This document shows positions 47,889 through 64,000 of a DNA stretch of 64,000 nucleotides, in pieces. The stretch covers positions 558,001 through 622,000 of the forward strand of contig VSJF01000001.1 in the NCBI GenBank assembly GCA_009739215.1, read 5' to 3'. Both the position numbers and the translations under genes were made by a program. This DNA comes from Floccularia luteovirens. Lineage: Eukaryota; Basidiomycota; Agaricomycetes; Agaricales; Squamanitaceae. Numbering within the stretch: the first letter of the stretch is position 1; every line of letters begins with the position of its first letter. The notes beneath the pieces were generated by a model that saw only the letters and a program-made list of their open reading frames with translations, was not told the DNA's origin and ran no database searches.

Positions 47889-49208
47889 TCAGAGGGCATC
47901 AAATTCAGATGCATTCCCTTCATCCTCAAGCATCTCCATCTCATCCTCACTATAAGCACTTTCCAGTTCAGATAAAAACTCTTCATATTCCTCAGAAGGG
48001 ATATAGGGCTTCAGGGATTTCAAAGCTTTTGACATCCATTTCATTGTCTGAGGTGACATCTTTGGCATCTGTATCTATATCATCATAAGATATAGGAAAT
48101 GACTATTATATATCCTTTTCAAACTGTTTAGTAATAGTGCGAAGATTGATATGGCCTATGCTACCACCAGTGAAGCGAATGAACATATCTCTGTCTGGAA
48201 ATCTAATGTCAATATGGTTAGTATTATTATATGCTGGTATTATATTCTCCATTACTTACATGTTAACATAATAGCAAGTATAGTCATTATCACATTCATC
48301 TGCATGCTAGGCTATAGATGGACCCAATAAGTCCTTTGTCTGATTGCTGGTAAATGAGGGAATGAGATAAATAGCCTATACAACAGTGGAGGGATCAATG
48401 AAACTGAATGCATCATTATCATCACCTGGCAGAAAGTGGACTTGGAATAGTTTTCTTACTCTAAATCCTGAGAACATCTGACTGTTGAGCAGCCATGTGT
48501 ATGTGACACAGTGGAGAGACTCAAGTCTTACCTTGTGCTTACTTGGTTCACACCTTACAGTTAGTGTTACTACTACTACCTATAGAATAGGACAAGGGAT
48601 CTATTCTGCATAAGAGTGTCCTTATATACAGTTCTAGCTGTATGTATATATTTACATATAAGGGTCCGTGCATAGGGCATGGGGCATATGTGAGTGTAGT
48701 CATGTGACACATCATGTGACATATCATCTGACTCATCACCTGATGAATTATGTAATCCATCATGTGATTGTGCTGTTGCAACACTGACTGTCAAAGTTAT
48801 ATCATTAAGCTCATAGAAATTCTGCTCAATGAAACTCCTGAAGGATTGATTTGGGATTATCAAATTTGACCATGGCATGGAATATCTCTATTACCTGAGT
48901 GTAGCAGTATGGATGCTCTAGCTCATTACAGTCTTCAAGCATCATGACATCTGAGTGTGTTTTTAGATTAATATTATCTTGCTCCCAATAGTTATCGTAT
49001 ATTGTATAGTTGATACACACTATCTGGTGATGGTAGATAGAATTATTTTGAATGATAAGTGTATATCGATCATTGTCTGTAATCTCTTCTCCTTCACACA
49101 GAAGTTAGTATAGCAGGTAGTCTATGAGTTTTGATGAAAAGCCCTTGAAATAGGCTGTAAAAGTATCATCAGGAATTGCAAGGATAAAAACAAGAATAAT
49201 GCATCTTG
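47889..49208 (-). pseudogene. Decayed DNA-transposon-associated ORF (Agaricomycete repeat family, possibly Plavaka-like), interrupted by a solo LTR
   Basis: Reading the minus strand from 49208, the relic shows SSKLIDYLLY*LLCEGEEIT, VCINYTIYDNYWEQDNINLK, THSDVMMLEDCNELEHPY and CYTQVIEIFHAMVKFDN. After the solo LTR at 48483-48783 it continues RKLFQVHFLPGDDNDAFSFI, DPSTVV*AIYLIPSFTSN and FPDRDMFIRFTGGSIGHINL, and ends in an acidic tail EDEMEMLEDEGNASEFDAL with the stop at 47889-47891. The layout matches a repeat-encoded protein common in Agaricomycetes; the superfamily name is tentative. Internal stops sit where Arg codons are expected (CGA to TGA). Its upstream part appears to lie on the plus strand at 54427-54592, moved away by an inversion. 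Confidence 0.65.
48483..48783 (-). mobile_element. Solo LTR, family L (TGTTG...CAACA), TSD CTGAC
   Basis: 301 bp from TGTTGAGCAG (rc of the 3' end) to TTGCAACA. The 5-bp target duplication CTGAC is perfect at 48478-48482 and 48784-48788. It interrupts the minus-strand relic reading frame. Sequence is closely related to the copies at 50602, 52379 and 53156. Confidence 0.9.
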
Positions 49209-49572
49209 TGTTGTAACAGCAACTATCACATGAAGGATCACATGATTCATGTAACATGATATGTCATATGACCTAGTTATGTGACTCACTCATCATATGC
49301 TTTATATGTCACGTGCATTATGACTAAGCATGTTCTTTGATGTTCTACAACATTCTACAAGGAACATGTGATTTATGGAACTATCTAGCATGGACCACTA
49401 TTTACAAATATGCACATATAGTAAAACTATATATAAGGACCTTGTACTTCGTACTATGCCCCTTGTCCTAATTACATTAGTAGTAGTCAGTATTAGCCTA
49501 TAAGCACAACAAGTAAGCTCTAAGGTAAGGTAGTTCCACTTCACTGTATATAACACAGAGTACTGCTCAACA
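49209..49572 (+). mobile_element. LTR copy E of family L, left breakpoint of an inversion
   Basis: 364 bp, TGTTGTAACAG...GCTCAACA. The left flank is TCTTG and the right flank TGACA, so it has no duplication of its own. The reversed copy at 54593-54955 carries the same two flanks swapped. See the inversion finding. Confidence 0.9.
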
Positions 49573-50601
49573 TGACATTCCTACAAATCAGTCAGCCACT
49601 CCCACTATTTCTTCATCTGTAGTTCATCTGCCAATGCAGCCAGACAATGAGCAATCTCCTCTTGTACTGCCTGTTCAAGCAGAATATGAACCTCCTCCTT
49701 CTCCACTTATACTTGCCACTCCACTACAGTCACCTAGTTCTCAACCAATCTCCTTGCCATGCACTTCTGTCATACAATTCACACCCAATCCAGTAACTCC
49801 TCCTTTAGCTCTTAGGAGAACTAGAAGAAATATTCAACCTCCTGGTAAATGGTGGAAAGTCAGACACTCCCCTGCAATCCCTGAGACTTCTTCTGAATCT
49901 GAAGCAGATGTTGCTAATGATGAAGAAGAGTTCAGTGGTATTGCTATTGCTACTGGTGTTACAGAGCCTAATACATACAAACAGGCAATGAAAGCACCAG
50001 ATGCAGAACTATGGAGACAGGCAGCTGCAGATGAAATTAAGACTCTTATGGATAATGGTACTTGGGACTTGGCTTTGTTGCCAAAGGATAGACAGGCAAT
50101 AGGTAGTAAATGGATGTTCAAAGTAAAGAGGAATACAGATAGCTCAGTTGAAAGATACAAAGCTAGACTAGTTGCAAAAGAGTTCTCTCAGAGACCTGGC
50201 TTAGACTTTACTGAAGTCTTTGCATCCACATTCAGAATGGCTTCAATCAGAACCATTATTGCACTAGCAGCTAAATACAACTACCATCTGCACTCTATTG
50301 ACATCTCATCTGCCTTCCTGAATGGTGATCTAGAGGAAGACATCTACATGTAACAGCCTGCTGGCTTTAAGCAACTTGGACCAGACTATGTTTGTAAACT
50401 CAAAAAGTCTATATATGGTCTCAAGCAATCAGCTAGACAATAGAACAAGAAACTGCATGCAGCTCTTAGTAGTATGGGTTATAGCAGATTGGAATCAGAT
50501 AGGAGTATCTATGTATATGCCAAAGAAGGGATTCTAGTTATTATTCCTATGTATATTGATGACATTACCCTTGCATTAAACTCAACCTCTAAGATTGATT
50601 C

Positions 50602-50911
50602 TGTTGCATCAGCACGATCACATGATGGATTACATAATTTGTCAGGTGATGAGTCACACGTGATATGTCACATGATGTGTCACATGACTACACTCACATA
50701 TGCCCTATGCCTCATGCCTTATGCACGGACCATCATATATAAATATGTACATATAGCTAGAACTGTATATAAGGACACTCTTATGCAAAATAGATCTCTG
50801 GTCCTATTCTATAGGTAGTAGGTAGTAACTAACCGTAAGGTGTGAATCTAAGTAAGCACAAGGTAAGGCTTGAGTCTCTCCACTATGTCACACACACATG
50901 GCTGCTCAACA
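50602..50911 (+). mobile_element. Solo LTR, family L, TSD GATTC
   Basis: 310 bp TGTTGCATCAG...GCTGCTCAACA inserted in the Copia reverse transcriptase. The target duplication GATTC is perfect at 50597-50601 and 50912-50916. Removing the LTR and one duplicate restores STSKIDSTIKELESHF. Confidence 0.93.
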
Positions 50912-51057
50912 GATTCCACAATCAAAGAGCTAGAGAGTCACTTTAAACTCAAGAATATTGGACCTACTACTTGGCTACTTGGCATGAAAATCAATGTTGA
51001 TTCTGCCAACCACACTATCTCCCTATCCCAGCAATAGTACATTAATGACATGCTTGT

Positions 51058-51663
51058 TGTTACTGTTAGGGGCTTATGCATTGTCGTTTACTGGTCTCAT
51101 CATTGGGGTATCCAGGTTAGGGAATGGTTGATTGTTGCCAGTCAGATTTCCCTGATGTAATAGTAGGTTATGCTACTACACAGGTTACAAACCACCTGTC
51201 AAGGTCTCTCTGAGATCAGTTACAGAGGAGGGGATAGCCAGGTGTTTCAGGCTGTACAGTGTCGTCCATGCCGCTATATACAATGATTTTGCCGTCCTAG
51301 ACAAGGGAGGGAGATTTACTTAGAGTGTCATGGAGGTAACAGAGTAATCGCCTGTATTAGAGGGTACTCAAAACTAAGATCAAGCTGAGGCTTGTCTGTA
51401 GTTTCATGCTACTTAAATATAAGTATGCTACTTCTAATTATAACCTATTGCATGCTTGCTCAGTAAGCTATGAGTCAACACAGAGTCATACAGAAGTATC
51501 TACTAGTTATTTAGAAGCATATACAAGTCATTACGAGTTAAAAGAACCAAAGTGCAAGTCATATACAAAACATGTATGAGAAAGTAGTAAATGAGGCAGG
51601 AACACGTTATGCATGCATTCTAAAGTCCAGGGAAATAGCACATATCCAGATAAGGTCATAACA
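51058..51663 (+). mobile_element. Solo LTR, family X (TGTTA...TAACA), TSD CTTGT
   Basis: 606 bp element inserted between NDMLV and QYGFTNCNP of the Copia. The target duplication CTTGT is perfect at 51053-51057 and 51664-51668. A TTAAATATAAGTATGC promoter-like stretch lies near 51411. A truncated inverted copy is at 59877-60295. Confidence 0.9.
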
Positions 51664-52378
51664 CTTGTGCAATATGGCTTTACTAATTGCAATCCAATCT
51701 CCACTCCCATGGATCCAGGACTTGTACTAGAGAAAACTCAAACCCTCTCTGATGAGGATGTAGAGTTCATGTCCAAGGTTCTCTACTTGTCTGCTGTTGA
51801 TACTCTCATCTACTTGGCATAATGCACTAGACCTAACATCTCATTTGCTATTGGTACACTTGCTAAATACAACTCCAATCCTAATCCAACTTATAGGAAA
51901 GCTGTCAAGCATGTATTTAGATACTTGCAAGGCACCAAGGACTATGAGCTTATGTACAGGCAAGATGATGCTAAGGAGCTGTTTATCACATACTCTGATG
52001 CAAATCATGATGCATGCAAAGACACTGGTAGATCTACTGGTGGCTATTGTGTTATGATTGGCAGTGGTGCAGTCAGCTGGTCTTCTAAGCTGCAGACTTG
52101 TGTTGCACTGTCTTCTACTGAAGCAGAGTATATAGCAGCTGTTGAAGCAGGCAAAGAGCTCAAATGGATGAGAAGCCTACTTGGTGAATTTGGATACATA
52201 TTTGATAAACCTTCTACTCTTTGCATTGACAACCAGTCTGCAATCAGTATGTCTAAGAATCCTGAGCATTATAGTAGAATGAAGCATCTTGACTTGAAGT
52301 TCCATTGGCTTAGAGAGAATGTGAAAGCAGGGATTATTACTCCAATTCATGTTGGCACCAATGATATGGTTGCAGACT

Positions 52379-52680
52379 TGTTGCGACAGCACGATCACAT
52401 GATGGATTACATAATTTGTCAGGTGATGAGTCAGGTGATAAGTCACATGACTACACTCACATATGCCCCATGCCCTATACCCTATGCATCATGTCATGGA
52501 CTCTTACACAAATATGTACATATAGCTAGAACTGTATATAAAGACACTCTTATGCAGAATAGATCCCTAGTCCTATTCTATAGGTAGTAGTAGTAACGCT
52601 AACCGTAAGGTGTAAACTAAGTAAGCACAAGGTAAGGCTTGAGTCTCTCCACTGTGTCATGCACACATGGCTGCTCAACA
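52379..52680 (+). mobile_element. Solo LTR, family L, TSD AGACT
   Basis: 302 bp TGTTGCGACAG...GCTGCTCAACA inserted near the end of the Copia RNase H frame. The target duplication AGACT is perfect at 52374-52378 and 52681-52685. Excision in silico rejoins MVAD to CLTKPLA. Confidence 0.93.
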
Positions 52681-52761
52681 AGACTGTCTTACCAAACCTC
52701 TTGCCAGAATCAAGCATGATAAATGCAGAATAGAACTTGGACTTATTACCAAGAAATAGTC

Positions 52762-53147
52762 TGTTACATATAGGATTAAGAGGGCTATGTTACAATAGTC
52801 TACTCCTACATGTACAGACATACTAGAATAGAGAATAGTAAGAGGATAGAATAGTATAGTATGTAATAGTAGACAGGAGGGGAAAGGAAGAATGGGTTCT
52901 AGTAGAAAACCAGTGGCCTTATATAGATACTAGAGGTGCTTCTATCAGAGTAGCCTAGAAGCACTCAGAGTAGACTAGAAGCACTGGTATCATAGTAACA
53001 GAAGTAGACTAGAAGCTGTCAGGGTAAGCTAGAAGTACTACCCTGAGCAGTCTAGAACAGTAGTCTAGGCCTTCCTGAATTATATATAAAGAGGCCTCTG
53101 TAGCATACTTTCCCTCTAACTGAATACACACTATTCCCACTCTAACA
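52762..53147 (+). mobile_element. 3' LTR of the old Copia element
   Basis: 386 bp from TGTTACATATAGG to CCCACTCTAACA. It aligns with the LTR at 57326-57718 on the opposite strand: shared blocks are TTGTTACAATAGTCTAC, GGAAAGGAAGAATGGGTTCT and AATACACACTATTC. It has a TATATAA-like block and short tandem units containing CTAGAAGCACT in the U3 region. The two LTRs of this element now face each other because of the inversion. Confidence 0.82.
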
Positions 53148-53155
53148 AAGGAGTG

Positions 53156-53524
53156 TGTTGCGACAGCACGATCACATGATGGATTACATAATTCGTCAGG
53201 TGATAAGTCACATATGATGTGTCACATGACTACATCCACATATCCCCCATGCCCTATGCATCATGTGCAATATGACTAAGCATGTTCTACAACCTTCTAC
53301 AAGATTCTATGCCCTAGACATGTGATTATGTAGAACAATACATGGACCATTATATACAAATAGATACATATAGTAGAACTGTATATAAGAATGATACCTT
53401 CTTTTATAATAGATGGTCCTTTCTGGATAAGTAGTAGTATACTAACTAAGTGTAAGATTAAGTAAGCACAAAGGTAAGAGCATAAGTCCCTATCACTGTG
53501 CACCACACAAATGGCTGCTCAACA
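53156..53524 (+). mobile_element. LTR of family L without matching target duplication
   Basis: 369 bp TGTTGCGACAG...ATGGCTGCTCAACA. The flanks GAGTG (left) and GAAGA (right) differ, so this copy may have recombined or lost its duplication. It begins 8 bp after the end of the Copia 3' LTR. Confidence 0.85.
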
Positions 53525-53716
53525 GAAGAAGAAGATGAAAGAGAAGCAAAAAGAAAATTTAAGTTTGAAGTATCCAGGGTAATTTTCCCACAGTCATATG
53601 ACTCTGCTGTTGACAAAGATTGGACTCATACTTTTTTTTTCTCAGTCCAATGCAAGTCCGACATTTTGCTTATGTAATCCAGAAAGTGGAATAATATAGA
53701 ATTAGTAATTGATCAC
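53525..53716 (+). other. Unassigned repeat debris
   Basis: A short open stretch reads KKKMKEKQKENLSLKYPG; further on, possible fragments such as YDSAVDKDWTH appear in other frames. No family recognised. Probably part of an older element into which the LTRs and the foldback element inserted. Confidence 0.35.
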
Positions 53717-54022
53717 TGTAAACTTTGTAGAATAGCACGAGATTTTGCAGAATAAAGACATATAAAATTATAGACATAGAAACATGTGCTTATTCGCTTT
53801 CATATGCGTCAAAGAGTAGCCAAAATGGTCCAGAATTCAGTGAGATATAATAAAAACATTATGAGTATGTTTTCTTATGATGTTTTCATGATATCTCACT
53901 CGAATCTGGACCATTTTGGCTGTTCTTTAACGTGTTTGAAAGCAAATAAGCACATCTTTTTATGTTTATAATTTTATATGTCTTTATTCTGCAAAATCTC
54001 GTGCTATTCTACAAAGTTTACA
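53717..54022. mobile_element. Foldback/MITE-like element with long inverted arms
   Basis: Starts TGTAAACTTTGTAGAATAG and ends with the reverse complement, CTATTCTACAAAGTTTACA. The arms are about 140 bp each and match closely (GCACGAGATTTTGCAGAATA; CAAAATGGTCCAGA). The loop of about 30 bp is around 53855-53885. It has no coding capacity. The transcript or single strand could form a long hairpin. Confidence 0.8.
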
Positions 54023-54039
54023 AGTTAATCAAAAACTCA

Positions 54040-54320
54040 TCACACTACATGCTACAGGTTGCTATGAAAATTAGCCTGATATCTATGGCATACTACAGTG
54101 AACTATAGAAAATCCAACAATCTATGAGACACTACAGGCCACTACAGACTACTATGGAAATTAGCCTAACATCTATGGAATACTACAGCTGCTATAGCCA
54201 CTACAGAAAATCCAAAAAACTATGGGTTACTACAGGTCACTATAAGCTGCTATGGAAATTAGCCTGACATCTATGGGTTACTACAGACTGCTATGGCCAA
54301 CTATAAAAAAGGGCAAAATG
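54040..54320. repeat. Degenerate minisatellite, about 95-bp units
   Basis: About three imperfect tandem copies of a unit containing TGCTATGGAAATTAGCCTGA, then CATCTATGG, then TACTACAG. Copies of ATTAGCCTGA or ATTAGCCTAA lie near 54070, 54151 and 54259, and TACTACAG blocks recur between them. Confidence 0.75.
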
Positions 54321-54426
54321 CTACAGGTCACTACATTGTAGAGTCAAGCAATTTTATGCTCATACAAATAAAAAAGGGTTCAAGAAGCAAATTAGAAATC
54401 ATGAACACTGGCAAGAATGATTTTAT

Positions 54427-54592
54427 GTGATAAACCATGCTATGGAAGCAGCTGAGGGGGGTGAGCCAGTTGTCCTCAAGCACTTGCTCTTGTCAAATCC
54501 CAAAGAACACCATCACATCTCAAAGAACAAGAACCAATATATCAATCTTATAAAATGGATCAAAAAAAACAATAAAGATGCTATATTCAAGA
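54427..54592 (+). pseudogene. Displaced upstream fragment of the decayed DNA-transposon ORF
   Basis: Reads MEAAEGGEPVVLKHLLLSNP, then KEHHHISKNKNQYINLIKW and IKKNNKDAIFK, stopping at the LTR. This matches the part of the repeat-encoded protein that should precede the minus-strand relic at 47889-49208. It is now on the opposite strand and 5 kb away. Confidence 0.65.
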
Positions 54593-54955
54593 TGTCGAGT
54601 AGTACCCTATGTTATACACAGTGGAGTGGAACTACCTTACCTTAGAGCTTACTTATTGTGCTTACAGGCTAATACTAACTACTACTAATGTAATTGGACA
54701 AGGGGTATAGTACGAAGTACAAGGTCCTTATATACAGTTTTACTGTATGTGCATATTTGTAAATAGTGGTCTGTGCTAGATAGTTCCATAAATCACATGT
54801 TCCTTGTAGAATGTTGTAGAACATCAAAGAACATGCTTAGTCATAATACACGTGACATATAAAGCATATGATGAGTGAGTCACATGACTAGGTCATATGA
54901 CATATCACGTTACATGAATCATGTGATCCTTCACGTGATAGTTGCTGTTGCAACA
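54593..54955 (-). mobile_element. LTR copy F of family L, right breakpoint of an inversion
   Basis: 363 bp, reverse orientation to copy E. Left flank CAAGA (rc of TCTTG), right flank TGTCA (rc of TGACA). By eye it differs from E mainly at CpG sites, for example TCACGTGA here against TCACATGA in E. Confidence 0.9.
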
Positions 54956-57325
54956 TGTCATACCCCTCTAAATTTGGCATGTCACTGCCATTGATAGGAT
55001 TTACAGTATCTGGAGATGGAATGGAGTTCATCATAGTGGGTTTTATCCTAGGAAAGTATCTCTCATCAAACTCAGCTCTTTCTGAGATAATAAACTTCCT
55101 TGTTACTAGATTGTAAGGCATCAAAGGTGTCTGATTTCCTTCTGAGTCCAAAACCACATTTGAATCTAGTACAGTCATTAACAAAGATGATCCAATACTG
55201 GTAACCACCTATAGACTTGACTTGGATTAGGCCTTTCAAATCCATATGCACTAGTTTAAGAGGTTTTAAAGCTCTAGAATCTGAAGTGGGAAATGGACTA
55301 GCATGCATTTTGCCTGAAAGGCATGGCTCACAGACTGGGTCTGATTTGGAGTTATTGCCAAGATGTATGCCAGTTACCATGTGCATAGAATGAAGTTGCT
55401 TTATACTAGCATGATTGTAGTGGCCAAATCTTCTATGCCAAAGTCCAAGATCCAGTGGGAGAGTAGAGGAGAGGTTTGCAGATTCTAGACAAGTAGAGAT
55501 AGTAATCCCATCCAGGAATGCAGCATTGTGGCTATTAATACTAGCTGTGAAAAGCTGTCTACTGGATTGATTAAAGCGAATGAATTGAGAATCAATGGAT
55601 ATATCATAGCCTTTGTGTCTGACAAGAAAGAGGATAGAAAGAAGATTGCTTTGTAATTGTGAAACATGAAGAACTCTAGTAAATAAAAGAGATTGTGTTT
55701 CCACACCATTAATAAATGGTCTGAAGAGAATGCTTCCAATACCAGAAGAATATATAGTAGTATTATCAGCTAGTCTAATAGGGATCTGGCAGGATTTATA
55801 ATCTCTGAGCCAGTGTTTATGTGGAGTCATGTGGGATGTGGCTCCTGAGTCTGCATTCCAATCATAGTTAGCATGATGGGAAAGTGGGTTATCTAATTGT
55901 ACTTGTGAAAAGATACTTGCCTTTCCTGCTGATTCCTGGGAATTGACTGCCTTTGCCTCTGCCTGTTTTGCTAAAAATAAAGAACACCTTTTAAAGGAAT
56001 GATCTTGTTTACCACAGAAGTAACAAGGAGGATAAGTGGTAGTAACAGAGCTAGATTGCTTCTGTTTTTCCTTATCTGTGGAGACCTTGTTTGCAACCTT
56101 TGAGACTTGAGGTGTAGATCTCCTTATCCTCTGAGTTTCCTCAGTGTGGAATGCTAGGGTGATAGAAGCTCTATCCAGTTTGTCACTCTGCATTAGATTT
56201 GACACAAAGTTACTGTACTAATCTAGAAGAGCCCTAATCATAGCTATGCACAACAACTCCTCATCCAGCTATTTCAGAGTAAAGTCCCTAGGTCTCAGAT
56301 TGTTAATCTACTGCATTGCTGCAGTGACCCTATTTGCAAGTGACTGCAAGGACTCCTTCTCTGTTTTTCTGATGCTGAACAAGTCATCATAGGCATTAAA
56401 TCTGGCACCAGGTTTTTGCTGGAGGTGCATAGACTTTAAGGCTTCCCATATTGCAACAGGGTCATCCTCTATCCCAATCAGATGCACAGTCTGAGATGAC
56501 TCTATATTAAGGTATAGCTATCCAGCTGCTTTCTGGGCTTTACTATCTCAGTCATCTTATCTTTGTATCTGCAACTCATAATCTTTAGAGAATTCCATGG
56601 CTTCAGGTCTCTTTTTGATGCCACACACAATGTGCAACAGCTGATGAGCCTTGAACCAGGCTTGGATTTCTCCACTCTATTGATTGTAGTTGTCAAGTCC
56701 CAGTTTTTTAATATCTGGTCCTTTAGACATAGTGGATTATGGTAAATGTAGCAAGGGGGAGAGGTGTGTAAAAGGAATTAAAGGTGCAAGTCAACTAGAA
56801 TGCAACCAAGCCCTTGATAAAGGTAGGGTTCTAGGACAGCCAAAAGAAATTAAAGAATGAGGGAAAGGAAAGGAAGTGAAAAAAGTGGGGGAGGGGTAGG
56901 GAGGGGTAGAGAGGGGAATAGAGGAATGGAGAATGGATTATTGTCCTTTGGTCTTCTTCACCACCAGTAAGTGTATGTCAACATCTTTAAACTACAGTGT
57001 AGTTGTATTACCTCATAGCTCACAGGGATGACTACCTGAGATATTGCTGTGTGGGTTAAAGGCTGGCCCACTAAAGTGCATAGACCCAATAGTTTACTGA
57101 AGAGACTCCCTGGAAGGGAGGTCTTTTGTCCTTACTGACTACTATGGACTGACTAGCTAATGACTAGCTAAGTTTAGCTTCCCAAAAACTCGGAGTACAA
57201 AGGAGAAAGATAAACTAAGTAGGAAAGAGTTAGGGAGTAGAGGAGATAGTAGTTGAGCAAGCACAGTGGACAAGTAAGACAAGGAGTTAATGGAGGGGCA
57301 CAGTTAGAGCTGAGGGCCCATAACC
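54956..57325 (-). pseudogene. 5' half of the old Copia element (gag, protease, integrase start)
   Basis: Gag begins near 56730 (MSKGPDIKKLGLDNYNQ*SG). The CCHC zinc knuckle is CYFCGKQDHSFKRC, the protease DWNADSGATSHMTPHKHWLR, and the GAG-pre-integrase domain LDLGLWHRRFGHYNHASIKQ with VCEPCLSGKMHASPF. The integrase start is LVHMDLKGLIQVKSIGG. The frame then runs to MPNLEGYD at 54956, which joins IPTNQSATPT at 49573 once the inversion is undone. Stop codons sit at expected Trp and Gln positions in gag. The open part at 55072-56205 is the best preserved. Confidence 0.9.
57314..57325 (-). other. Primer binding site of the old Copia
   Basis: GGTTATGGGCCC on the minus strand directly follows the LTR end CTCTAACA. 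Its complement GGGCCCATAACC resembles the anticodon region of initiator tRNA-Met (GGGCTCATAACC in yeast), which Copia elements use as a half-tRNA primer. Confidence 0.65.
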
Positions 57326-57718
57326 TGTTAGAGTGTGAATAGTGTGTATTCAGTTTTTAGGGGAAAGTATGCTACAGAGGCCTCCTTATATACAATTCAG
57401 AAAGGCCTAGACTACTATTCTAGACTGCTCAGGGTAGTGCTTCTAGCTTACCCTGATAGCTTCTAGTCTACTTCTGTTGCTATGATACCAGTGCTTCTAG
57501 ACTACCCTAAGTGCTTCTAGTCTACCCTGAGTGCTTCTAGTCTACCCTAAGTGCTTCTAGGCTACTCTGATAGAAGCACCTCTGGTATCTATATAAGACC
57601 ACTGGTTTCCAACCAGAACCCATTCTTCCTTTCCCTTCTATTCTACTACTATCTTATACTGTCTGTACATATAGCAGTAGACTATTGTAACAATACTCTA
57701 GTCCTACATACCCAGACA
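57326..57718 (-). mobile_element. 5' LTR of the old Copia element
   Basis: 393 bp, on the minus strand from TGTCTGGGTATG (57718) to CACTCTAACA (57326). The U3 region carries about four tandem 20-bp units of the type AGTGCTTCTAGTCTACCCTA (57490-57570), more than the 3' LTR has. No clear 5-bp duplication is shared with the outer flank of the other LTR. Confidence 0.82.
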
Positions 57719-57955
57719 CTACTACATAGATAATACATAAAGATATAATAAGTAGAGTAGAAGTTGTAGTAGTGAAGTGAGGGAAAGGAAGAATGGGGAG
57801 TGGCATCAGACCAGTGGCCTTATATATTGTACCAGGGACACCTGGTACACAAACAAGGCCAAACTACTAGGTGGTCTGTGCACACTCTCCAAACATATAT
57901 AAGGAGACACTTCTGCCTACTTTTCCCCCAACCAAATACACACTGTTTTCACTCA
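57719..57955 (+). mobile_element. LTR-like fragment
   Basis: Shares with the Copia LTRs the blocks GAAAGGAAGAATGGG, CAGTGGCCTTATATA and AATACACACT in the same order, but the middle differs (ACACCTGGTACACAAACAAG). Plus orientation. It abuts the Gypsy relic, so it probably inserted into it. Confidence 0.55.
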
Positions 57956-58110: not shown

Positions 58111-59642
58111 AGGACTATATCTCGCAAAATAGGTTCTATGAGTATGATTGCTTGGAGTGATGATGTGAGCTATTCTTGAGTGAACACTGGTCTGAAATTG
58201 TGAGAGTTGACAGCAGCATAGTTGCTACTCCCCTCCTTTGGGTAAACATTCCATCTGCATGTCAGTGCATCAGGCTTAGCTCCGAGTTTTCTGGGACAGA
58301 AATGGATAATTAAATTGAAATGAGAAAGATACTCAGACCACTGAGCTTGTCTCTGAGTCAGGACTTTTATGGTGGAGAAATACTCAAGGTTCTTGTGGTC
58401 AGTAATCATATTCACTGGTGTTGCTGAATCTTTGATGTAATGTCTCCATTTCTGGAAAGCCTCAAAGATGGTGAGTAATTCTTTATCATGTGTGTCATAG
58501 TTGAGTTTTGGTTGGATGAATATTTGGGAGTGGAATGCAACAGGGTGAAGTTTATTATCCGGAGTTTTAACAGAGAGGATTGCAGCCAGTGTATAATCCA
58601 AGGCATCAGTTTCAATGATAATAGGTAGGTCTGGTTGCCAATGGGCAAGCACCAGAGCTATAGTAAAAGAGTGTTTAAGTGTTTCAAATGTCTTTCAGCA
58701 TTGGTCATTAAAATCAAAAGGAACACCTTTGCACATTAAGTGAGTCAAAGGGATAGTAATCTCAGAGTATTCATTAATGAATCTCCAGTAAAAGTTTGCA
58801 AATCCAAGGAAAGACTGCACATCTTTGACTTTACGTGGCTCAGACTAGTCTAGAATGGTTTGTACTTTCACTAGGGTCATGATAAAGCCTTTAGGAGTAA
58901 GAATGTAACCAAGATACTCAATGGTGGTTTGATGGAATTCACATTTGTCTGCTCTGGCAAACAGGCTATTTGCTCAGAGTTGTTAGAAGACTTCTTATAT
59001 ATTTTCTTGATGCTTGGAGATATTGTCCAAGTAAATGAGAATGTCATCTAGATAAATGACAACATTCACATCAATCATGTCACAGAAGATATTGTTCATG
59101 AAATTCTGAAATGCTGCTGGAGAGTTGATAAGTCTAAATGGCATTACCAACTATTCAAATGATCCGTATTGGGTTCTGAATGCTGTTTTCCATTCATCAC
59201 CTTCAGCAATTCAGACCAAATGATATGTTGAAGTTCAAACCGAACTCTGCAATTGTACTACTGTAAGCAGTCAGATACAATGCAAGAAACCCTCTAAAAT
59301 GCGTTCAAACAAGTGTAATATGATTAACTTTGTTTTCAGCAAGTATCTAGTATCTATCTCTAGATACATAAGGAAAGCGCACTTGTTTGGTCCTGTTGTA
59401 CCCAGGAAACCATAAGGTGTGATAAATAGTGTCCACTATATCGCGTTTGAGTGTTTTGCAACACTCAGTGGACCTACAACTACAAAACAAAAGCAGAAAC
59501 ATTAAGAAATGTAAACTAAGTGTAAAAGTGCGAAATGAAAGTATTTTACTAATGCCACTATTGTGGCATTTACATTAAAGTGCACAAAGTGCGAACTAAT
59601 ACTTTACTAATGCCTGTGTTATGGCATCTACTAACTTTAACA
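58111..59642. repeat. Left arm of a 1532-bp inverted repeat
   Basis: Reverse complement of 62469-64000 with equal length and no gap seen. It covers the Copia LTR and the 3' part of the Gypsy relic. The spacer to the right arm is about 2.8 kb. The homology may extend below 58111, but the partner lies beyond the window. Confidence 0.92.
59226..59642 (-). mobile_element. Solo LTR of the younger Copia family, TSD TATCA
   Basis: 417 bp; on the minus strand TGTTAAAGTTAGTAG...GAACTTCAACA. The target duplication TGATA (rc TATCA) is at 59221-59225 and 59643-59647. It lies in the Gypsy reverse transcriptase, splitting YAYH-LV. It is identical by eye to the 3' LTR at 62469-62885. Confidence 0.93.
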
Positions 59643-59876: not shown

Positions 59877-60295
59877 TGTTATAATCTTATCTGGACTCCA
59901 CATATATCCCTGGACTTTAGGCCATGCACATAACACGTTCCCACCTTGTTTATTACTTTTCCATACATATTTTGTATATGACTCGCGTTTTGGTTCTTTT
60001 AACTCATAGTGACTTATATAGACTTCTAAATGACTAGTAGATATTTTTGTATGACTCTGTGTTGACTCATAGCTTAATTAGCAAGCGCGCAATAGGTTAT
60101 TATTAGAAGTAGCATACTTGTATTTAAGTAGCGCGAAACTACAGACAAGCCTCAGCTTGATCTTAGTTTTGAGTACCCTCTAATACAGGTGATTACTCTA
60201 TTACCTCCATAATGCTCTAAGTGACTCTCCCTCCTCTGTCTAGGATGGCAGGACCATTGTATATAGCAGCACGGATGACACCGTACAGCCTGAAA
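59877..60295 (-). mobile_element. Truncated LTR of family X, fused to Copia internal sequence
   Basis: Reverse-complement match to about 51250-51663 (shared blocks CCTGTATTAGAGGGTACTC and CAGCTTGATCTTAGTTTTGA). It retains CpGs where the 51058 copy has TpG or CpA, for example TTTCGCGCTAC against TTTCATGCTAC. It stops abruptly at about 60295, where Copia coding sequence begins. Confidence 0.8.
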
Positions 60296-62320
60296 TTTGA
60301 AACTAAGGACACTGGTATAGTTCCTCAGCCACAAGACAAAGCAAGTGAACCAAGTAAGGATACTAGTGATAGTGATATCTACTACACTCCTGTACCTGCA
60401 ATTTCGACTCAGCCAGTCAGTAATGACAATGACAATGACAATGCACTAGTTCCATCAGATAATGAGAGTTCACCTCAGAATGATGAGAATGATGACTTAA
60501 ATGAGCAAACTCCGGACTCAAATGGTGACAAGTCAATTGTTTCAATGGATTCTTCTATGGATTCAGAGAAAAGTCGGACTCAGGATGACAGTTCTAGTAG
60601 TGATACTGAACTTGAACTACCTATTGCACTCAGAAGGACCCAAAGACAAAGAAGGCCTCCAGGTGAATGGTGGAAAGTCAGAGAGCCAACCCCAGCAATT
60701 CCTTCTTCTGATGAAGAGGATAGTGATGATGAGCTTGCTAATGCAACTGGACAGTCAGAGCCATTGACATACAAGGAAGCACTCACCAGATCTGATGCAG
60801 AGTCTTGGAAACAAGCTGCTGCTGATGAAATACAAGCTCACTTCAACAATGGCACCTGGTCAGTAGTTCCATTACCACCTGGGCAAAAGGCAATAGGTTC
60901 TAGATGGGTATTCAAGGTGAAACACAATGCAGATGGGTCGATTGAGAGGTACAAAGCTAGAATTGTAGCAAAGGGTTTCAGTCAGAGACCTGGATTTGAT
61001 TACTCTGAGGTGTTTGCACCAACAATGAGACAAGCTACAATCAGGCTAGTACTTGCTCTGGCAGCTATTGAGGACATGCATCTTCGCTCTGTGGACATAT
61101 CCTATGCATTTATCAATGGAGACATTGATGCTGACATCTACATGAAACAGCCAGAAGGATTTGAGCAAGGTGGTCCGAAAATGGTGTGCAAACTGAACAA
61201 GTCAATCTATGGATTGAAACAAGCTGCTAGACTCTGGAACGAAAAGTTTACTGCAGCATTGAGTGTGATGGGATTCAAGAGAATATACTCTGATCCCTCC
61301 CTCTATATTTATGACTCTGATGGCTTGAAAGTCATTGTACCAGTATTTGTGGATGACATTACACTTGCTTCCAAATCCAAATCTGCACTGGATAAGTTTG
61401 TTGTAGACTTGTCCAAGCACTTCAAACTCAGGGATCTTGGTGAAACTTCGTTTCTACTAGGTGTAGAGATTACTAGAGATAGAGCAAACCGGAAAATCCA
61501 TTTGTCACAGAAGCAGTACATACTGAACATGCTGGAAACATTTGGAATGATGGAATGCAAACCTGTAGACACACCAATGAACCCTGGGGAGCGACTTTCT
61601 AAAGCTCAGTGCCCTCAGACAGCAGAGGAAGTGCAAGAAATGCGAAACATCCCTTATATGAATGCAGTTGGATCCCTAATGTACTTGGCTACAATGTCTA
61701 GACCTGATATTGCATTCACTACTGGAGTGTTGGCTAGATTCAACTCCAATCCTGGAATGCAGCACTGGAAAGCAGTCAAGCATGTGTTCAGATATCTCAA
61801 AGGGACAGTCAACATGAGACTTACCTATGGACCTGACAGTGCAACCAGTGATTTGTTTACAGGATACAGTGATGCAGATCATGGTGGTGATAGAGACAAT
61901 GGGAAATCAACATCTGGTTACATGATTAAAGTGGGAACAGGAGCAGTGTGTTGGAGCAGTAAATTGCAACCAATTGTGACATTGTCTACTACAGAAGCAG
62001 AGTATGTGGCCGGAGTTGCAGCAGGAAAAGAGATTGTCTGGATACAGCATCTTCTGCATGAACTTGGTTACAAAGTACCGAAACCTGCTACTTTGTTTAT
62101 GGATAATCAGTCTTCTATGACTGTTGCTAAAAATCCTGAACACCATGGACATATGAAACACTTGGATCTTGACTACTACTGGCTCAGGGATAAAGTGGCA
62201 GACAAAGCTATTGCACCACAATATCTCCCAACTGAATCAATGCCTGCAGACCTACTCACTAAAGCCTTGCCTCGTGCTCAGGTCTTAAAACTGCGTAGCT
62301 TAATGGGATTAGAGATGTAA
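60221..62320 (+). CDS. Younger Ty1/Copia polyprotein fragment, open RT-RNase H frame, 5' truncated
   Basis: An open frame of 699 codons. The first 25 or so residues are the antisense of the family X LTR, so the apparent start is chimeric. Copia sequence begins near FETKDTGIVPQPQDKASEPS. An acidic linker precedes RRTQRQRRPPGEWWKVREP. RT motifs are GSRWVFKVKHNADGSIERYK, GFDYSEVFAPTMRQATIRLV, SVDISYAFINGDIDADIYMK, IYGLKQAARLWNEKF and VIVPVFVDDITLASKS (FVDD). RNase H motifs are YSDADHGGDRDNGKSTSGYM, LSTTEAEYVAGVAAGKEIVW and PADLLTKALPRAQVLKLRSL. Gag, protease, integrase and the 5' LTR are missing, so it cannot move by itself. Confidence 0.9.
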   Translation: MTLPPLSRMAGPLYIAARMTPYSLKFETKDTGIVPQPQDKASEPSKDTSDSDIYYTPVPAISTQPVSNDNDNDNALVPSDNESSPQNDENDDLNEQTPDSNGDKSIVSMDSSMDSEKSRTQDDSSSSDTELELPIALRRTQRQRRPPGEWWKVREPTPAIPSSDEEDSDDELANATGQSEPLTYKEALTRSDAESWKQAAADEIQAHFNNGTWSVVPLPPGQKAIGSRWVFKVKHNADGSIERYKARIVAKGFSQRPGFDYSEVFAPTMRQATIRLVLALAAIEDMHLRSVDISYAFINGDIDADIYMKQPEGFEQGGPKMVCKLNKSIYGLKQAARLWNEKFTAALSVMGFKRIYSDPSLYIYDSDGLKVIVPVFVDDITLASKSKSALDKFVVDLSKHFKLRDLGETSFLLGVEITRDRANRKIHLSQKQYILNMLETFGMMECKPVDTPMNPGERLSKAQCPQTAEEVQEMRNIPYMNAVGSLMYLATMSRPDIAFTTGVLARFNSNPGMQHWKAVKHVFRYLKGTVNMRLTYGPDSATSDLFTGYSDADHGGDRDNGKSTSGYMIKVGTGAVCWSSKLQPIVTLSTTEAEYVAGVAAGKEIVWIQHLLHELGYKVPKPATLFMDNQSSMTVAKNPEHHGHMKHLDLDYYWLRDKVADKAIAPQYLPTESMPADLLTKALPRAQVLKLRSLMGLEM

Positions 62321-62468: not shown

Positions 62469-62885
62469 TGTTAAAGTTAGTAGATGCCATAACACAGGCA
62501 TTAGTAAAGTATTAGTTCGCACTTTGTGCACTTTAATGTAAATGCCACAATAGTGGCATTAGTAAAATACTTTCATTTCGCACTTTTACACTTAGTTTAC
62601 ATTTCTTAATGTTTCTGCTTTTGTTTTGTAGTTGTAGGTCCACTGAGTGTTGCAAAACACTCAAACGCGATATAGTGGACACTATTTATCACACCTTATG
62701 GTTTCCTGGGTACAACAGGACCAAACAAGTGCGCTTTCCTTATGTATCTAGAGATAGATACTAGATACTTGCTGAAAACAAAGTTAATCATATTACACTT
62801 GTTTGAACGCATTTTAGAGGGTTTCTTGCATTGTATCTGACTGCTTACAGTAGTACAATTGCAGAGTTCGGTTTGAACTTCAACA
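62469..62885 (+). mobile_element. 3' LTR of the younger Copia
   Basis: 417 bp TGTTAAAGTTAG...GAACTTCAACA followed by TATCA and Gypsy sequence. It contains two copies of a TTCGCACTTT block flanked by TAGTAAARTA repeats. The same LTR with the same flank is at 59226-59642 in reverse. Confidence 0.92.
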
Positions 62886-64000
62886 TATCATTTGGTCTGA
62901 ATTGCTGAAGGTGATGAATGGAAAACAGCATTCAGAACCCAATACGGATCATTTGAATAGTTGGTAATGCCATTTAGACTTATCAACTCTCCAGCAGCAT
63001 TTCAGAATTTCATGAACAATATCTTCTGTGACATGATTGATGTGAATGTTGTCATTTATCTAGATGACATTCTCATTTACTTGGACAATATCTCCAAGCA
63101 TCAAGAAAATATATAAGAAGTCTTCTAACAACTCTGAGCAAATAGCCTGTTTGCCAGAGCAGACAAATGTGAATTCCATCAAACCACCATTGAGTATCTT
63201 GGTTACATTCTTACTCCTAAAGGCTTTATCATGACCCTAGTGAAAGTACAAACCATTCTAGACTAGTCTGAGCCACGTAAAGTCAAAGATGTGCAGTCTT
63301 TCCTTGGATTTGCAAACTTTTACTGGAGATTCATTAATGAATACTCTGAGATTACTATCCCTTTGACTCACTTAATGTGCAAAGGTGTTCCTTTTGATTT
63401 TAATGACCAATGCTGAAAGACATTTGAAACACTTAAACACTCTTTTACTATAGCTCTGGTGCTTGCCCATTGGCAACCAGACCTACCTATTATCATTGAA
63501 ACTGATGCCTTGGATTATACACTGGCTGCAATCCTCTCTGTTAAAACTCCGGATAATAAACTTCACCCTGTTGCATTCCACTCCCAAATATTCATCCAAC
63601 CAAAACTCAACTATGACACACATGATAAAGAATTACTCACCATCTTTGAGGCTTTCCAGAAATGGAGACATTACATCAAAGATTCAGCAACACCAGTGAA
63701 TATGATTACTGACCACAAGAACCTTGAGTATTTCTCCACCATAAAAGTCCTGACTCAGAGACAAGCTCAGTGGTCTGAGTATCTTTCTCATTTCAATTTA
63801 ATTATCCATTTCTGTCCCAGAAAACTCGGAGCTAAGCCTGATGCACTGACATGCAGATGGAATGTTTACCCAAAGGAGGAGAGTAGCAACTATGCTGCTG
63901 TCAACTCTCACAATTTCAGACCAGTGTTCACTCAAGAATAGCTCACATCATCACTCCAAGCAATCATACTCATAGAACCTATTTTGCGAGATATAGTCCT
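62886..64000 (+). pseudogene. Second copy of the decayed Gypsy pol, runs off the window
   Basis: Plus-strand reading starts at HLV*IAEGDEWKTAFRTQYG and repeats the same stops, the same RNase H (IIIETDALDYTLAAILSVKT) and the same termination after FRPVFTQE as the minus-strand copy at 58111-59225. The only coding difference I noticed is Glu for Gly in NVYPKEESSNY. Truncated at base 64000. Confidence 0.9.

Follow-up and report, generated by a model that had tools for sequence, protein, structure and literature searches.

Solo LTRs normally lie between two copies of a short target-site duplication, and the locus described here raises the question of how two of them, E and F, in opposed orientation and about 5 kb apart, came each to be flanked by unlike sequences. 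They lie in the window, by which we mean the whole 64,000-nucleotide stretch analysed, corresponding to C1:558001-622000 in a 27.0-Mb genome of 22 contigs. Positions without a contig prefix are those of the window, and the features that bear on the two LTRs are as follows.

49209..49572, plus strand: solo LTR E, 364 bp, TGTTG...CAACA
54593..54955, minus strand: solo LTR F, 363 bp
49204..49208, plus strand: TCTTG, outer flank of E (partner copy CAAGA at 54588-54592)
49573..49577, plus strand: TGACA, inner flank of E (partner copy TGTCA at 54956-54960)
54588..54592, plus strand: CAAGA, inner flank of F
54956..54960, plus strand: TGTCA, outer flank of F
49573..54592, strand not applicable: segment of 5020 bp from one LTR to the other, read as inverted; the breakpoints proper would lie inside E and F

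The coordinates, strands, LTR boundaries and four flanking 5-mers given for E and F in the initial annotation proved correct to the base. Read in the orientation of each element, E is flanked by TCTTG and TGACA and F by TGACA and TCTTG; both are without a target-site duplication of their own, and the exchange of flanks between them is exact (10/10 bases), just as the annotation had it in describing the 5-mers as swapped crosswise. The alignment of the two LTRs covers 363 positions, of which 344 are identical and 19 mismatched, with 1 gap (94.5% identity), and the segment thus has at its two ends homologous copies in opposed orientation, as inverted-repeat recombination requires. Their longest identical tract is 74 bp (LTR positions 109-182). 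The point of exchange was sought in a comparison of E and F with 28 further copies of the LTR, from which no clear parent copies emerged: of the 20 differences between the two, 11 are departures of E from the majority and 9 are departures of F, in interleaved order.

As a control for the exchanged flanks we surveyed the E family. A genome search with E gave at least 42 matches including E and F; it scored 40 of the 242 candidates from the first look, and the family accordingly extends beyond the matches listed. The 30 best-scoring copies (L001-L030), whose ends were set by rule, comprise 24 solo LTRs and 6 that are ends of longer elements. Six of the 30 loci adjoin sites, recognised by eye in the flanks, that we take to be primer-binding or polypurine sites, and the family as a whole has the features of LTRs, namely TG...CA ends, a 5-bp duplication and, beside the longer members, these putative primer-binding and polypurine sites. 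An own 5-bp duplication is exact in 16 of the 24 solo copies and has at most one mismatch in 20, the copies that fail being E, F, L017 and L023. When the ends are allowed to shift by 1 bp, the mismatches fall to one in L017 and to zero in L023, and an own duplication is then seen in 22 of the 24; E and F, still with four mismatches, are the only two solo copies without one. The 30 loci form 435 pairs, among which E and F are the only one with an exact exchange on both sides and without own duplications. Four near-exchanged pairs (L003/L014, L006/L021, L010/L020 and L024/L026, with at most one mismatch per side) were rejected because every member has its own duplication, exact in all cases except for one mismatch in L003. 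Two 5-mers are expected to match crosswise by chance in about 1.2e-6 of pairs, giving approximately 5e-4 over the 435 pairs before it is required that the two be neighbours in opposed orientation.

Two further observations were made on this family. Of the 353 changes from the majority in L001-L030, 274 run from C to T on one strand or the other; 32% of CpG sites are hit vs 2 to 6% in other contexts, the pattern that decay of methylated CpG would give. In addition, one member (L021, G000:C20:197200-197928) is apparently interrupted by an opposed copy of the same LTR, and has its own duplication.

If the segment was inverted between E and F, any element that it shared with the sequence outside should have been parted, and a Copia element lies in this position.

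54956..56217, minus strand: Copia 5' part, with Pol_BBD and GAG-pre-integrase on 55072-56217 and no Pfam family on 54957-55208
49577..52787, plus strand: Copia 3' part, RVT_2 piece first, broken up by LTRs a and b and by further sequence
57326..57692, minus strand: Copia 5' LTR
52788..53147, plus strand: Copia 3' LTR, in orientation opposite to the 5' LTR

A GAG-pre-integrase domain upstream of RVT_2 is the mark of Copia (Ty1-like) retrotransposons, and both domains are found in the element, the RVT_2 match falling on 49577-50353 (Pfam, 1.8e-30). That they lie on opposite strands would be a consequence of the inversion, and the opposite orientation of the two end LTRs is likewise expected if one part was flipped. 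No Pfam family was found on 51823-52389 of the 3' part; its later portion aligns at 66% with the 3' part of the Copia ORF at 60221-62320.

The initial annotation held that the 54956 side of this element originally continued into the 49573 side. Two junction-side pieces of 400 bp, 54956-55355 (minus) and 49573-49972 (plus), were searched separately in the genome, and gave 68 matches (40 of 53 candidates scored) and 39 matches (39/39 scored), respectively. We paired those of the 68 that extend over the half of the first piece next to the junction (33 matches) with the 38 second-piece matches outside the window; the end of the first piece is reached in 32/33 and the start of the second in 35/38. 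It can be seen that 31 coordinate pairs lie on the same strand and that their overlap is exactly 5 bp in every case (31/31). The pair C8:211829 / C8:211987 overlaps by 3, with a match that starts at position 3, and four second-piece starts had no partner among the matches compared. When 29 loci (L062-L090) were read directly, 28 showed both pieces, each with an overlap of 5, and these included L080 and L087, which had been partnerless among the matches. The shared bases are TGACA, with TAACA in L077 as the one exception; in L076 the site is not seen, as its match begins at position 62. The uninterrupted state is therefore usual for this Copia family, and the proposed join is the one found in its other genomic copies. 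Both the exchanged flanks and this uninterrupted order at the Copia site are direct observations.

Some other features of the element were also noted. Its outer flanks are unlike, with AAGGA at 53148-53152 after the 3' LTR and ATACT at 57693-57697 beside the 5' LTR. Near 55115 the window copy is without bases that are present between the two matched pieces in other copies (477 bp at C22:903445-903921 and at C20:1181959-1182435, and 380 bp at C2:813454-813833). At 57326-57826 two related Copia LTRs stand head to head with seven bases, TGTAACA, in common (57686-57692); the second of them (57686-57826) is partial and 75% similar.

At the second breakpoint the sequences to be rejoined belong to a relic.

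54421..54591, plus strand: relic behind F, an open frame of 57 aa that runs up to LTR F; a second genomic copy was not found
48829..49206, minus strand: relic left of E, with open frames at 48829-49104 and 49108-49206

The relic is presumably like Plavaka-type transposases. No Pfam family reached the cut-off on the relic pieces, and matches to CUT and Destabilase below the cut-offs were taken as chance. A protein search of this genome with the relic behind F returned only itself, and a search that needs shared 5-residue words gave no protein homologues of 48829-49104. The genome contains one other match to 48792-49208, the sequence left of E; this match (C16:1668613-1669019, 90% identical; 2/2 candidates scored) covers 48792-49199, ends 9 bp before the LTR and is followed by bases without an LTR. 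When the window flanks are joined without the LTR, this match can be followed across the TCTTG site and for another 10 bp (8/10, approximately 5e-4 by chance) and then stops; the next 260 bp or so on contig 16 resemble the relic no better than shuffled sequence (236/300 shuffles scored at least as high). A 27-bp match elsewhere, obtained with other scoring and a longer target (30 vs a best of 28 in 100 shuffles), was taken as chance. Continuity of the relic had been claimed as well; its open frames lie on the plus strand behind F and on the minus strand left of E, and the contig-16 copy supports the join over only about 10 bp. Together with the exchanged duplication, these strands and the short contig-16 match give weak support for the inversion from the relic side. 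We conclude that two of the three independent signals first proposed, the exchanged flanks and the Copia join, are strong, and that the third is real but weak.

The segment and its surroundings hold further elements.

50602..50911, plus strand: solo LTR a, second family, own duplication GATTC
52379..52680, plus strand: solo LTR b, second family, own duplication AGACT
53156..53524, plus strand: LTR c, other family, 369 bp, with flanks GAGTG (left) and GAAGA (right) that do not match

Three of the four nearby related-family LTRs have an exact own duplication, as read on the plus strand (a, b and also d, with CTGAC), and LTR c does not. Its unlike flanks are possibly the result of a second exchange. 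A search for its partner with the left-end pattern gave 3 matches, one of them with exact GAAGA (C1:644036), and the right-end pattern gave 13 matches, none with exact GAGTG, the nearest being GAGTT at C1:634614; we claim no partner among these, as only one flank of each was read. Because LTR c and the Copia element both have unlike flanks, at least one additional event of rearrangement, loss or decay is recorded in the surroundings, and one inversion does not account for everything nearby. In an unsystematic look for host genes, the only content noticed in the segment was transposon-derived or unassigned sequence. The segment also contains a hairpin at 53717-54022, with two 149-bp arms that are 89% complementary and 8 bp apart, which is possibly a miniature inverted-repeat element. 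Outside the segment, 58111-59642 and 62469-64000 form an inverted repeat of at least 1532 bp that is 99.9-100% identical, has an RT_RNaseH match and reaches the window end; a Copia reverse transcriptase ORF lies between its arms.

It is very probable, in our judgement, that the 5,020 bp, together with parts of both LTRs, were inverted by ectopic homologous recombination of one opposed LTR with the other. Two LTR retrotransposons of the same family would have inserted approximately 5 kb apart in opposite orientations, one of them inside the Copia element at the target TGACA and the other beside or in the neighbouring relic at the target TCTTG, and both are solo LTRs today. Between the opposed LTRs, a crossover or some equivalent exchange of templates would have flipped the intervening 5,020 bp and left each LTR with one duplication copy from each site. 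Exchanged duplications between opposed copies are what reciprocal recombination within the copies leaves, and we infer both that homologous recombination within the LTRs brought about the exchange and that at this locus the non-inverted order is the older one. The opposed LTRs, the exchanged duplications and the restored continuity of the Copia element are all as predicted, and they support the initial reading of a 5-kb inversion made in this way.

The same pattern of exchanged flanks would be produced by a flip in the assembly, in which the real chromosome is non-inverted and the wrong sides of two similar LTRs were joined. E and F are similar inverted repeats, which are the usual site of such errors; however, at 364 bp and with about 5.5% difference they are short for a long read, and the 11 of the 22 contigs that were listed span 1.36 to 3.29 Mb, which suggests that long reads were used. 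On balance we think an assembly flip quite unlikely. Solo LTRs are not known to serve as a substrate for hybrid-element insertion, and this counts against aberrant transposition, rather than recombination, as the source of the inversion. In transposons, aberrant transposition can give an inversion with two flanking copies in a very similar arrangement, but, as set out for Drosophila, it predicts that these copies are identical (PMC2775673), whereas E and F differ at 20 positions; later changes could explain some of these differences, and this explanation seems to us highly improbable. Finally, it is barely conceivable that two independent solo LTRs each lost a duplication by mutation or deletion and match crosswise by chance since, although six of the 24 solo copies besides E and F do have an imperfect or shifted duplication, such losses would leave the parted Copia element unexplained and all ten crosswise bases to coincidence (about 1.2e-6 per pair) in what is the only exactly exchanged pair of the 435.

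Recombination between the opposed LTRs therefore remains our preferred reading, and its genomic setting may be of wider interest. The 39 matches to the 49573-49972 Copia piece fall in 12 of the 22 contigs (for example C1:607573-626052), and span at most 41 kb in 10 of these 12, 105 kb in C22 and 211 kb in C8; C3 carries the 54956-55355 piece at its end as well, in a search that scored 40 of 53 candidates. Centromere-specific LTR elements have been described in Cryptococcus amylolentus (PMC5568439), and by analogy with that report the Copia clusters here may mark centromeres. On contig 1 this Copia family was found in one cluster only, possibly a centromere, and the segment is part of it; it is conceivable, if unlikely, that the LTRs recombine again there and that the order of the 5 kb is not a fixed relic but a flip-flop polymorphism within the population.

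The E and F pair is a base-level record of one LTR-mediated inversion, in which the uninterrupted state of one breakpoint is kept in many sister copies in the same genome. Pairing duplication-less solo LTRs by their exchanged flanks might make it possible to count past rearrangements in one assembly alone. The case implies no new mechanism: the signature of exchanged duplications and the mechanism behind it are already published (PMC2775673, PMC2603318), the event is of an ordinary and well-known kind, and a review depicts, in a figure legend, inversion as the outcome of recombination between inverted elements (PMC5857280).

Exchanged duplications were used in Drosophila to show that an inversion was made by a transposon, the marks of proof for Galileo being opposite orientation, exchanged duplications and chimeric copies, with aberrant transposition discussed as the rival (PMC2775673). 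That inversion, 2z3 of Drosophila buzzatii, was generated by Galileo and has, like the segment here, opposed copies of the same element at its breakpoints, with exchanged duplications attributed to ectopic recombination, and a non-inverted sequence with single target copies (PMC2775673). It differs in that Galileo is a DNA transposon, that the inversion is a polymorphic chromosomal one compared between chromosomes and that the copies are chimeric; the case of E and F involves solo LTRs, 5 kb and one genome, and shows the first two of the marks of proof, with the differences between E and F interleaved. For inversions that arose through retrotransposons and differ between human and chimpanzee, unlike duplications also distinguish the ancestral from the derived order (PMC2603318), and the ancestral order is judged here on the same grounds, although those inversions involve L1 and Alu elements and were studied by BLAT against other genomes and by PCR. 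In a fungus, Mycosphaerella fijiensis, 125 LTR elements have 5' and 3' flanks that differ, as E and F do, and were read as products of ectopic recombination (PMC3562529). Those elements were counted, apparently without pairing of the partners, whereas with E and F both partners of one event have been identified.
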